DNA from: Microbacterium ginsengiterrae
GTDB taxonomy: Bacteria > Actinomycetota > Actinomycetes > Actinomycetales > Microbacteriaceae
Length of the DNA: 64,000 bases
Direction: 5' to 3'
Assembly (NCBI RefSeq): GCF_014205075.1
Contig: NZ_JACHMU010000001.1
Span: forward strand, 1-64,000
Below are positions 2,080 through 5,692 of the stretch, piece by piece. Below the pieces are notes generated by a model. That model saw only the letters and a program-made list of their open reading frames with translations. It searched no databases and was not told the DNA's origin. Numbering within the stretch: the first letter of the stretch is position 1; every line of letters begins with the position of its first letter. Made by a program: the position numbers and the translations under genes.

Positions 2080-2730
2080 ATGGCTCGAGCTTCGCAGTCC
2101 CCCGCCGCGCCGCGGGTCTCTCCACCCGATCTGCCGCCTGTCCTCGCACCCGCCGACCCCGGCCGCGCTGTCGATCTCATCGCGGCACGCCTCTCCCTGA
2201 CCGGCATCGCGGATCTCGCGCATGCCACCCTCGAGCAGTGCACCATCACCGCGGATGCCGATGCCGTCGATCTCCGCGGGGCGACACTGCTGGACGTCGA
2301 CGCGAACGACATGCGCGTCGCGTCCCTCTCGCTGCGCGACGCGAACATCCGCCGTGTGCGGATCACCGGTGGCCGCATGGGCACGCTCGACCTCAGCACG
2401 ACGCGCATCGACGAGCTCGCTCTGATCGACGTCCGCGTCGACTACCTCAACCTCGGGGCGGCGAAGGGCACGGACCTGCTGTTCAGCGGATGCAGCATCC
2501 GTACCCTCGACATGCCCCAGGCCCAACTGACCCGCGCCCGCTTCGATGACTGCCGCAGCGGCGAGGTGGATCCCCGTGGCCTCCGCGCGAAGGACGTCGA
2601 CCTGCGCGGGCTCGACGCCGCCGCCTACATCGACACCAACGGGCTCCGAGGCGTCACTCTCTCCCATGAGCAGGTTCAGTTGCTCGCCCCCGCCCTCGCC
2701 GCAGGTGTCGGCATCCACGTTCAGGACTGA
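2080..2730 (+). CDS. Pentapeptide-repeat family protein
   Basis: A 216-residue protein with a proline-rich N-terminus (about 1-30) followed by degenerate A(D/N)LxX-type five-residue repeats, for example VDLRGATLLDVDANDMRVA and KDVDLRGLDA. The repeats should fold as a right-handed quadrilateral beta helix. Some family members mimic DNA and protect gyrase; others have no known role, and nothing here decides. It has no signal peptide. The start has no ribosome site but lies six bases after TAGGAT, so it is probably leaderless. The 3' end overlaps the convergent ATPase gene by ten bases. Confidence 0.75.
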   Translation: MARASQSPAAPRVSPPDLPPVLAPADPGRAVDLIAARLSLTGIADLAHATLEQCTITADADAVDLRGATLLDVDANDMRVASLSLRDANIRRVRITGGRMGTLDLSTTRIDELALIDVRVDYLNLGAAKGTDLLFSGCSIRTLDMPQAQLTRARFDDCRSGEVDPRGLRAKDVDLRGLDAAAYIDTNGLRGVTLSHEQVQLLAPALAAGVGIHVQD

Positions 2731-3686
2731 ACGAGTAGCTCGGCGAGCTCCCCCAGTGCATCAGCCCCGGTGAGTTCGCCCTTCATCAACGGCACCTCGA
2801 TCACTGGGATGCCGGGGACGGATGTCCGCACCTTCGCGAGGTGCCGGTCCTCGACAGTGCGCCTCGCGCGCAGGATGTCGCCACCATCGGCGGGAGAGCG
2901 CCGGTTCGCGATGAGAGCGGTGACGCGCACGTCCATGCCGCCCAGCGCAGCGACCACCTCGAGTGTCTCGGCCACGGGAAGCGCCTCCGCCGTGAACGCG
3001 ACGACGAACCCGCTCGCTCGGTCGTCCGTGACCGCCGCCTGCAGGCCCACGAATCGTTCCCTGCGCCGCTGCAGCGTGCGGCGCAACTCCGCTTCCGTCG
3101 ATCGCTCGGGGTCGCCGCGTCCGGTGAGGCCCCGCATCGCCGCGGAGAAGCGTTCCGAGCGATCGCGATTGCGCAGCAACGTGTCCGTCCACCCGGCGAG
3201 CTGGCCGGGCAGCGCCAGCAGACGCAGCGTGTGCCCGGAGGGTGCCGTGTCGAACACGACGAGGTCGTAGTCTCTTCCGCCGAGTTCTGCGGCCTCGGCG
3301 ATCCGCTCGAGGACGGCGGATTCGTGACTGCCCGGCGCGAGCCTGGCACGCGCGAGATGCTCACGCGCCTGCGCATGCTGTCTCTCGGGAAGCAGTCGCA
3401 GCATCGTCTGCTCGACGGCGGCGAGATGACGATCGATCGTCCGGTCAGGGTCGATCTCCACGCCGTCGACCGCGCCACCGACGGGTGTGGCTAGGCGGAC
3501 CGGCTCGTCCCCCACCTCTCGCTCCCACAGATGGCCGAGGTTGTGCGCCGGGTCCGTCGACACGACGAGCACGCGAGCTCCCTGACGCGCACGCGCGAGC
3601 GCGATCGCCGAGGCGAGCGAGGTCTTGCCCACCCCGCCCTTGCCGCCGACGAACAGCAGTCGGCGTTCCGGGTCCGTCAGCAGCAT
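2721..3686 (-). CDS. ArsA/Get3-family ATPase
   Basis: A 321-residue SIMIBI-class ATPase. The deviant Walker A GGKGGVGKTS is near residues 14-23, STDPAHNLGHLW follows as the switch I type motif, and VVFDTAPSGHTLRLL is the switch II type motif. Family members either drive arsenite efflux or, like Get3, escort hydrophobic tail segments. No arsenite pump or ArsR/ArsD gene is nearby. The ATG lies inside the last codons of the upstream Cys-Cys protein gene (10-base overlap), so the two are tightly coupled. They sit directly behind cstA, which suggests a role with that transporter rather than arsenic. Confidence 0.85.
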   Translation of the reverse strand: MLLTDPERRLLFVGGKGGVGKTSLASAIALARARQGARVLVVSTDPAHNLGHLWEREVGDEPVRLATPVGGAVDGVEIDPDRTIDRHLAAVEQTMLRLLPERQHAQAREHLARARLAPGSHESAVLERIAEAAELGGRDYDLVVFDTAPSGHTLRLLALPGQLAGWTDTLLRNRDRSERFSAAMRGLTGRGDPERSTEAELRRTLQRRRERFVGLQAAVTDDRASGFVVAFTAEALPVAETLEVVAALGGMDVRVTALIANRRSPADGGDILRARRTVEDRHLAKVRTSVPGIPVIEVPLMKGELTGADALGELAELLVQS

Positions 3687-3961
3687 GTCATCTGGTCCAG
3701 CGGTGATCGCGGCATGCCCATCCGTCGGTGCCAGGCATGGAACTCCTCGGCGAGGAGCGGCATGAGCTCTGCGCTGTAGTACGCGGCCGGGTCTGGCACG
3801 CCCAGCGCTTCCCCGAGCACGACGAGCGTGAACAGGTCGTCCTCATCGCGTCGTTCTCGAGCGAGCGCCTGCCGGTAGGGACCGGCGTAATACTCGTTCA
3901 GCCCGGCGCGGAAGGCGGCCCAGCGCCGCGCTAAGCGCGGGGCCGCCGTCCGATGCGTCAC
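3677..3961 (-). CDS. Small Cys-Cys-ending protein (cory-CC-star type)
   Basis: A 94-residue protein that ends QMTCC directly before the stop. From memory this matches the actinobacterial family named cory-CC-star. The C-terminal Cys-Cys recalls the small YbdD/YjiX proteins encoded with cstA/btsT in Enterobacteria, which are needed for pyruvate uptake and also end in CC. The body contains LNEYYAGPYRQAL and aromatic-rich helices. The start is a GTG three bases after the cstA stop, with GAGGTC as a ribosome site inside cstA. Its last codons overlap the ATPase start. Function inferred from context only. Confidence 0.75.
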   Translation of the reverse strand: MTHRTAAPRLARRWAAFRAGLNEYYAGPYRQALARERRDEDDLFTLVVLGEALGVPDPAAYYSAELMPLLAEEFHAWHRRMGMPRSPLDQMTCC

Positions 3962-3964
3962 GTG

Positions 3965-5692
3965 TCAGACCTCCTCGCGCACCGCCTGGATCCCGGCATC
4001 CTCGTCCTCGGGCTCCGGCGGGGACGCCGCGGCCTTGCGCATGGCGATCACCGCCTCGATGGCGACCCAGACGCTCGCGACGATGATGATCACATCGAGT
4101 GCGAACAACAACCAGTCCGGCTCTGACGGGTTCGTGAAGGAGAAGAGCTGTTCGAGGGCCGCCCAGAACGACATCACGAAGACGAAGATCAGCGGGAGCA
4201 GTGCCGGCAGGATGTTGCGGCGCTTCCGGATCAGCATCACGGTGAGGATCGACAGTGTCAGCGCGGCCAGCAGCTGGTTCGTCGTGCCGAACAGCGGCCA
4301 GATACGCAGTCCGCCGTCTCCCCCGAGCCCCTGCGAGAAGGTCAGGCCGAGGCCGACGACCACCACCACGAGCGTCGCGGCGACCTTCGGGATCTTCACG
4401 TGCACGGCGTCGCCGATCTCCTGGACGACGAAACGCAGCAGGCGCATGCCGGTGTCCATGGTCGTCGCCGCGAACAGCACCGCCATCGTCGCGAGTACGG
4501 TCGCACTGAGGGATGCCGGCAGGCCGATTCCGTTCTCCAGCAGCGCCCCACCGCCCTGCACGAACGCGCCGACGCCGCCGGCTCCGAAGGAGCTGTAGAC
4601 CTCTTCCCATTCGGCGACCGTGCGGAACCCGCCGATCACGGCGAGGATCGTGCCGAGCGACAGCAGACCCTCGCCGACCGCACCGAAGTAACCGACGAAG
4701 CGCGCGTCGGTCTCCTTGTCGAGCTGCTTCGAGCTCGTTCCCGAGGAGACCATGCCATGGAAGCCGGAGATGGCACCGCAGGCAATGGTGACGAACAGCA
4801 GCGGGATCATGCTCGGTGTGCCTTCCGGCAGCGCCGTGTTGATCATCGGCGCGACGATCTCCGGCTTGTCGGCCGCGAACAGCGTGCCGATCAGGACAGC
4901 ACCGTAGAGCAGACCGAGACCGACGAAGAGTTGGACCCCGTTGATGTAGTCGCGCGGCTGGAGCAGCACCCAGACCGGAAGAAGCGACGCAATAGCACCG
5001 TAGACGAACAGCGCGAGGATCCAGAAGGTGGCCGGGCCCATGCCGAGGAAGTCGTCAGGCAGCACGACGGGCATCTGGTCGCCGAGCACGATCAACGCGT
5101 AGAGCGCCGCGACACCGACGATGGTCACCGGGAGCAGGGGCCAGCGAAGGCGGTAGACCGCGACCCCCACGAGCAGCGCCACGATGATCGCGCCCCAGGT
5201 CGGGATCACAGCGGAAGGAGTGCTGATGAGCAGGTTCTTGATGACGACCGCGAATGCTGCGATCACCATGAGCAGCAGGAGGAAGATCACGACGAGGAAC
5301 AGGTTGGCGCCACGTTTGCCGATGTAGCGCGCGGAGAGTGCACCGATCGATCGGCCCTTGTTGCGCGTCGACGCCCACAGGGCGCCGAAGTCATGCATCC
5401 CCGCGAAGAAGACCGTTCCGAGCGTCACCCACAGGAAGGCAGGGAGCCATCCCCAGATGACGGCGATGGCCGGCCCGACGATCGGGGCCGCCCCGGCAAC
5501 AGAAGTGAAATGGTGCCCCCACAGGATGAACTTGTTCGTCGGCATGTAATCCACACCGTCTCTGAGTTCGTGCGCAGGCGTCGTGTACGACGCGTCGAGC
5601 CGGTACACCCGTTTGGCCAGGTACCTCGAGTACACGAGGTATCCGAACACGAACAGAGCGAGGCCGATGAGCATCAGTAGGACAGGACTCAT
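3965..5692 (-). CDS. cstA: Carbon-starvation protein CstA family transporter
   Basis: A 575-residue polytopic membrane protein beginning MSPVLLMLIGLALFVFGYLV. Motifs typical of CstA include NKFILWGHHFTSVAGAAPIVGPA and the FHGMVSSGT segment. About 14-16 hydrophobic segments are visible. The E. coli relatives CstA and BtsT take up pyruvate (and were linked to peptides). This one is shorter than the ~700-residue E. coli proteins. I chose the ATG at 5692 because GAGAGGAAG precedes it by a good distance; a longer frame to 5752 has no signal. Likely -10 TACGGT at 5748-5743. It heads a three-gene unit with the CC protein and the ATPase. Confidence 0.9.
   Translation of the reverse strand: MSPVLLMLIGLALFVFGYLVYSRYLAKRVYRLDASYTTPAHELRDGVDYMPTNKFILWGHHFTSVAGAAPIVGPAIAVIWGWLPAFLWVTLGTVFFAGMHDFGALWASTRNKGRSIGALSARYIGKRGANLFLVVIFLLLLMVIAAFAVVIKNLLISTPSAVIPTWGAIIVALLVGVAVYRLRWPLLPVTIVGVAALYALIVLGDQMPVVLPDDFLGMGPATFWILALFVYGAIASLLPVWVLLQPRDYINGVQLFVGLGLLYGAVLIGTLFAADKPEIVAPMINTALPEGTPSMIPLLFVTIACGAISGFHGMVSSGTSSKQLDKETDARFVGYFGAVGEGLLSLGTILAVIGGFRTVAEWEEVYSSFGAGGVGAFVQGGGALLENGIGLPASLSATVLATMAVLFAATTMDTGMRLLRFVVQEIGDAVHVKIPKVAATLVVVVVGLGLTFSQGLGGDGGLRIWPLFGTTNQLLAALTLSILTVMLIRKRRNILPALLPLIFVFVMSFWAALEQLFSFTNPSEPDWLLFALDVIIIVASVWVAIEAVIAMRKAAASPPEPEDEDAGIQAVREEV

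Follow-up and report, generated by a model that had tools for sequence, protein, structure and literature searches.

A conserved unit of short-type CstA, a Cys-Cys-ending small protein and an ArsA/Get3-type ATPase in Microbacterium ginsengiterrae

What do a small protein ending in two cysteines and an ATPase of the ArsA/Get3 type do beside the transporter CstA? The question is raised by a locus in the window, which is the whole stretch of 64,000 nucleotides (nt) that was analysed, from position 1 of contig NZ_JACHMU010000001.1 of Microbacterium ginsengiterrae (genome of 3.04 Mb, one contig). On its minus strand lie cstA, a gap of 3 nt, the gene of the small protein (hereafter the CC protein), an overlap of 10 nt and the ATPase gene. 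This order, the spacing and the MTCC end of the CC protein were confirmed by coordinates and translations, as the original prediction had claimed. The linkage of the three genes is far above chance and they form one conserved unit, in which the ATPase goes with the CC protein and not with CstA as such. This conservation suggests an ATPase that acts by way of the cysteine-tailed protein. The features of the locus are as follows (aa, amino acids).

5692-3965, minus strand: cstA, short-type CstA transporter (ATG start, 575 aa; PF02554, in the two-piece match typical of the short type)
4778-4780, minus strand: codon for CstA Cys305, the single cysteine shared by 46 of 46 aligned CstA sequences, short and long
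3961-3677, minus strand: CC protein, cory-CC-star (GTG start, 94 aa, C-terminus MTCC; NF041419)
3686-2721, minus strand: single-domain ArsA/Get3-type ATPase (ATG start, 321 aa; PF02374 and TIGR00345)
3677-3686, minus strand: 10-nt overlap of the CC gene end (Cys93-Cys94-stop) with the ATPase start in the other frame (ATG CTG CTG)
3680-3685, minus strand: codons for the invariant terminal Cys-Cys of the CC protein (120 of 120 listed homologues end in CC)

What the small protein and the ArsA homologue do next to CstA was put forward as a hypothesis in 2010. The trio is already described in print as cstA-cstX-arsA operons by Castillo & Saier (2010), and the belief of the original prediction that the unit had not been characterised was mistaken in this respect (PMC2963123). 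In their text an ArsA homologue accompanies CstA in 26 cases and CstX is present in 24 of these, the trees correspond, and ArsA is proposed to energise CstA with CstX as the link (PMC2963123). The CC protein is probably CstX, judged from its size and position alone. The main text of that paper does not contain the words DUF466, YbdD or selenoprotein, and a literature search that left subscription papers mostly outside found no published report that the terminal Cys-Cys of CstX is invariant or that a different Cys-Cys protein can take the place of CstX. Beyond the 2010 description, the present data add the invariant Cys-Cys, cysteine codons that usually double as the ATPase start, and an ATPase that tracks the CC protein.

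The window CC protein matched NF041419 ('cory-CC-star') with 122.7 bits, against a curated cut-off of 80, and the name given by NCBI indicates that the curators know the CC end. Of 335 homologues found, each of the 120 listed has the terminal CC, and no other cysteine occurs in the 41 aligned CC proteins or in the window's. The window ATPase scored 201 bits with TIGR00345, the GET3/ArsA/TRC40 model (cut-off 135), and matched PF02374; GGKGGVGK(T/S), DPAH and DxAPxGH are kept in 18 of 18 aligned ATPases, including this one. Assignment as the arsenical pump ATPase ArsA (TIGR04291) was rejected at 108.8 bits against a cut-off of 650, for a protein of 321 aa with no cysteine. Many CC-star proteins carry the UniRef name 'DNA helicase', which is probably a misannotation that has spread. 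On Halomarina plasmids (L156, L157), an ArsA/Get3-type ATPase lies directly before a transporter of the major facilitator superfamily, with no ars gene annotated within 4 kb.

The linkage was surveyed in 296 genomes of the class, in a family draw of 299 genomes and in named loci, which are the best 80 of 502 confirmed matches. NF041419 matches were found in 17 of the 296 class genomes, 16 of them above the cut-off. In each of these 17 loci the CC gene has CstA in front and the ATPase after it, all in one orientation, even where identity to the window falls to about 31%. In the family draw the CC gene was present in 17 genomes; two were already known, and the 15 new loci all carry the full trio, as do 78 of the 80 named loci. 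One of the two named exceptions begins at a contig end. The other is a draft genome without CstA within 5 kb, where the CC-ATPase pair stays together and a single CstA, short type by score, lies elsewhere. The conserved linkage for which the original prediction proposed a survey is borne out. Trios are present in Pseudomonadota and Bacillota as well: in Luteimonas and Lysobacteraceae, on plasmids of Paracoccus and Pseudochrobactrum, and in Cytobacillus, where an extra small gene separates CstA from the CC gene. Among archaea, Haloferax volcanii gave an NF041419 match below the cut-off, and no CC-star is annotated beside the CstA of a Natrinema plasmid. E. coli, the control genome of the NF041419 search, gave no CC-star match.

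The ATPase is equally exclusive. A profile was built from 18 ATPases (the window's, nine of the other 16 from the class survey and eight more), and its scores in the class genomes are bimodal: 17 matches at 347-436 bits, all in trios, and the next best at 212 bits, elsewhere (limit E 1e-30). The seven of these 17 ATPases that were outside the profile build score alike, at 347-427 bits. All 17 ATPases of the subclass in the 296 genomes adjoin a CC-star protein and a short-type CstA (17/17/17), and the profile search found none above 212 bits anywhere in the 279 class genomes without CC-star.

CstA was found in 110 of the 296 class genomes, and the hits were sorted into 84 loci of long type (three of these fragmentary) and 28 of short type, with two sub-cut-off hits and the second fragment of one split gene excluded. 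The YbdD family (PF04328) gave 73 hits, 72 within 1 kb behind a long-type CstA and the last beside the other fragment of the split gene, and none behind a short-type CstA. The 28 short-type loci comprise 17 trios, nine with another Cys-Cys protein, which bears a DPRN motif, and two with neither. The 12 long-type hits without YbdD are one split gene, one with a YbdD-like tail ending in CC, and 10 without a CC-ending open reading frame (ORF) or DPRN-type protein. A search of the flanks (1.5-4 kb) of 32 long-type and 11 further short-type CstA loci turned up neither the ATPase nor the CC protein. The genome studied here has both types: its second CstA, at 1564131-1566450, is of the long type, with a YbdD ending in CC behind it. 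In one short ORF (L185) an N-terminal piece of CstA appears to run into a YbdD-like tail with a CC end, and this ORF may be a fusion or a deletion remnant.

The DPRN-motif protein, of about 150 aa, lies behind the short-type CstA in nine of nine loci of one family, without CC-star or ATPase. All 49 aligned sequences keep its Cys-Cys, as do 97 of 101 listed; three of the four listed proteins without it are short (84-113 aa). None of the DPRN-motif proteins scanned passes a Pfam or NCBIfam cut-off, and PDB matches were at chance level only. Likeness to thioredoxin is weak, since 6 and 7 of 49 match two thioredoxin-type models (best E 0.042 and 0.035), and two of the 101 listed proteins carry the NCBI name 'thioredoxin family protein'. 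The extra Cytobacillus protein, which stands between CstA and a normal CC protein, is without Cys-Cys and resembles the C-terminal part of the DPRN-motif protein (hhalign 88.6%); a plain hidden Markov model of five DPRN-motif members misses it.

In a CstA tree of 46 rows the DPRN-partner group, which was named before the tree, is nested among the trio CstAs; the forks are moderately supported (86/100 and 83/94) and Cytobacillus forms a long branch. A single clade for the 25 trio CstAs was rejected (p 2e-5, two trees). Probably the CC protein and the ATPase were replaced together in the DPRN-partner lineage, or the trio was acquired on more than one occasion. That the ATPase tracks the CC protein, and not CstA as such, holds under both histories alike, and it is what one would expect of an ATPase whose action is on the CC protein or goes through it.

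The conserved overlap of the two genes points in the same direction. An in-frame ATPase start lies at exactly -10 in 86 of 100 loci (48 ATG, 36 GTG, 2 TTG), although the loci are not independent samples and the presence of a start codon does not prove that it is used. The remaining 14 have a start at -4 (three loci) or neither (11, one of them with GTG at -14), and the two Cys codons are kept in 100 of 100 loci, these 14 included.

The explanation that we favour, with a little less than even confidence, is that the CC protein is a cytosolic, dithiol-tailed subunit of short-type CstA, which a dedicated ATPase loads, releases or resets and thereby gates. The AlphaFold2 model of the CC protein (mean predicted local distance difference test, pLDDT, 83; predicted template modelling score, pTM, 0.47; 41 sequences) has helices at 6-52 and 58-80, followed by a tail that shows no secondary structure and ends in the Cys pair (pLDDT of the last four residues, 63). 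The protein modelled in this way would be a helical hairpin whose loose tail presents the terminal dithiol to the transporter, where Cys305 is the only cysteine of the window CstA. The CC protein may play the part that YbdD plays with CstA in E. coli. The ATPase, which probably serves the CC protein alone, would use ATP binding and hydrolysis to load it onto CstA, to release it or to reset the dithiol, and transport would then depend on the ATP state, and perhaps the redox state, of the cell. Physical contact, thiol chemistry and the direction of the effect are parts of this proposal that we infer, and pyruvate or a peptide would be the substrate by analogy with E. coli CstA alone. PDB matches of the CC protein were at chance level only, and the PDB holds no sequence relative of CstA and none of YbdD.

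The precedent of YbdD, on which the original prediction drew, is real: deletion of ybdD in E. coli lowers pyruvate uptake to 20% of wild type, although the authors allow indirect effects (PMC5847655). Descent of the CC protein from the same family did not stand, as it gave no Pfam (PF04328) match and, against a profile of 12 actinobacterial YbdD, an hhalign probability of 1.2% with only the final CC aligned. DUF466 proteins of Campylobacterales end in Cys-Sec (Sec, selenocysteine), and redox activity was inferred by the authors of that report (PMC4607533; see also PMC13188914). Against the KCU-star selenoprotein model, the YbdD of the present genome gives a match that stays under the cut-off.

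Rather unlikely, though a serious possibility, is the proposal of Castillo & Saier that the ATPase energises CstA transport as ArsA does for ArsB, with CstX coupling hydrolysis to the permease. It draws on the strict operon with a permease, on the intact catalytic motifs and on the published tree correspondence of CstA, CstX and ArsA (PMC2963123). However, it leaves the invariant Cys pair without reason, and the ATPase is absent beside all 43 tested CstA loci without CC-star, including the lineage nested among trio CstAs, a pattern that the proposal survives if the CC protein is the link. To our knowledge, no ATPase helps CstA or BtsT of E. coli. CstA of E. coli works with the proton gradient, its transport being inhibited by protonophores, and BtsT is likewise driven by this gradient (PMC7730263), which speaks against energising by an ATPase and also counts, together with the lack of a CC-star in E. 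coli, against the explanation that we favour.

Further points weigh against a dithiol-tailed subunit served by its own ATPase. There is no conserved cysteine in the ATPase: the window's has none, and among 97 ATPases including it 58 have none and the maximum is three, so direct thiol exchange with the ATPase is unlikely. A CC-ending or DPRN-type partner is missing at 12 of 112 class-survey CstA loci (2 short, 10 long), and such a partner is therefore not universal. If it is the CC protein that couples the ATPase to CstA, the energising model accounts just as well for the disappearance of both together. In the text of Castillo & Saier, CstX of archaeal cluster 14 is called a protein with a single transmembrane segment, unlike the CC proteins here (PMC2963123). 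No published bench test of the trio was found in the literature search, again with subscription papers mostly outside. Taken with these points, the added evidence favours an ATPase acting through a dithiol-tailed subunit, and does not separate loading or gating from energising.

It is improbable that the Cys-Cys tail is a binding site for a soft metal or metalloid which the unit moves or senses, with the CC protein as an ArsD-like chaperone. Vicinal cysteines together with an ArsA-type ATPase would suit this role, as would a presumed likeness of the CC protein to the chaperone ArsD; in the DPRN-motif protein, Cys-Cys follows a hydrophobic, strand-like N-terminal segment, as read from the sequence by eye. 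The absence of a conserved cysteine in the ATPase argues against it, as does the transport of pyruvate by E. coli CstA. According to the main text of Castillo & Saier, the cst operons are without arsenic resistance genes, and the cysteines of ArsA are missing in the single-domain homologues (PMC2963123). No ars genes were present in three annotated trio loci (the Paracoccus and Pseudochrobactrum plasmids and Cytobacillus).

Somewhat less probable still is a Get3-like role of the ATPase, either as a chaperone for some hydrophobic part of the CC protein or in bringing that protein into the membrane; insertion was one of the options that the original prediction had named. The ATPase does belong to the TIGR00345 family, and the two segments that hold the client in Get3 have in 97 ATPases a mean hydropathy (-0.52 and -0.81) equal to that of one Get3, 3zq6 (-0.47 and -0.82). 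The same segments are poor in methionine, with means of 1.9 and 0.7 against 7 and 5 in 3zq6, and the CxxC is missing in the window ATPase, where CEFC of 3zq6 aligns with GDIL (match E 1.9e-41). Some Get3 proteins act without CxxC (PMC10248533), so its lack alone does not exclude a Get3 role. The CC protein has no transmembrane segment by hydropathy, no 19-residue segment with a mean above 1.57 occurring in the 41 aligned sequences, and its model has no hydrophobic C-terminal helix. The coupled unit with an ATPase acting on the CC protein keeps its conserved genes and their co-occurrence, and its insertion step has little support. Least probable is shared expression of the three genes without physical coupling, against which stand the 17/17/17 exclusivity, the conserved overlap, the presence of the block in several phyla and its joint replacement.

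A wider reading of the dithiol-tailed subunit, which we consider unlikely, is that CstA-family transporters need a dithiol as a working part and take it from at least three protein families without detectable similarity (YbdD, the CC protein and the perhaps thioredoxin-like DPRN-motif protein). The trio ATPase would recharge or load the tail, making the transporter ATP- and redox-gated. If so, pyruvate or peptide uptake would be under thiol control in many bacteria, and an ArsA-type ATPase would gain a new kind of client. The present data offer testable sites in the two terminal cysteines, CstA Cys305 and the P-loop of the ATPase.

Around the locus, a pentapeptide-repeat-like protein (2080-2730 of the window; PF13599 just under the cut-off) is encoded convergently with the ATPase gene, their 3' ends overlapping by 10 nt. 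A consensus scan for promoters and terminators gave no match at the locus, which is a weak test in a GC-rich genome. Fusion of the CC protein with CstA or the ATPase was rejected, as 0 of 196 neighbouring pairs in 100 loci share one open frame, and so was a fourth conserved operon gene, the best neighbour family among predicted genes of at least 80 aa recurring in only 6 of 67 loci. Outside the window, behind the second CstA and its YbdD, are two further genes, presumably a LytS/LytR pair.

Compared with known systems, the trio ATPase shares the fold family and ATPase motifs of Get3/TRC40, but it lacks CxxC and has fewer methionines in the client segments, and the CC protein is not tail-anchored by hydropathy. 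Like the ArsA-ArsB(-ArsD) pump, the trio combines a secondary transporter with an ArsA-type ATPase, and ArsD, the small vicinal-cysteine protein of the arsenite pump, is presumably a further likeness, to the CC protein; unlike in ArsA-ArsB, the ATPase is single-domain and has no cysteines, and the transporter is from another family. As in CstA-YbdD of E. coli (DUF466/KCU-star; PF04328, NF033934), a small protein ending in Cys-Cys (or Cys-Sec) stands behind CstA, whereas YbdD goes with long-type CstA in the genomes surveyed, has no such ATPase beside it and is unrelated in its body. With the cstA-cstX-arsA operons the trio shares CstA, a small protein of about 90 aa and a single-domain ArsA homologue of about 330 aa in one operon, and in the set published there CstX never occurs without CstA (PMC2963123).

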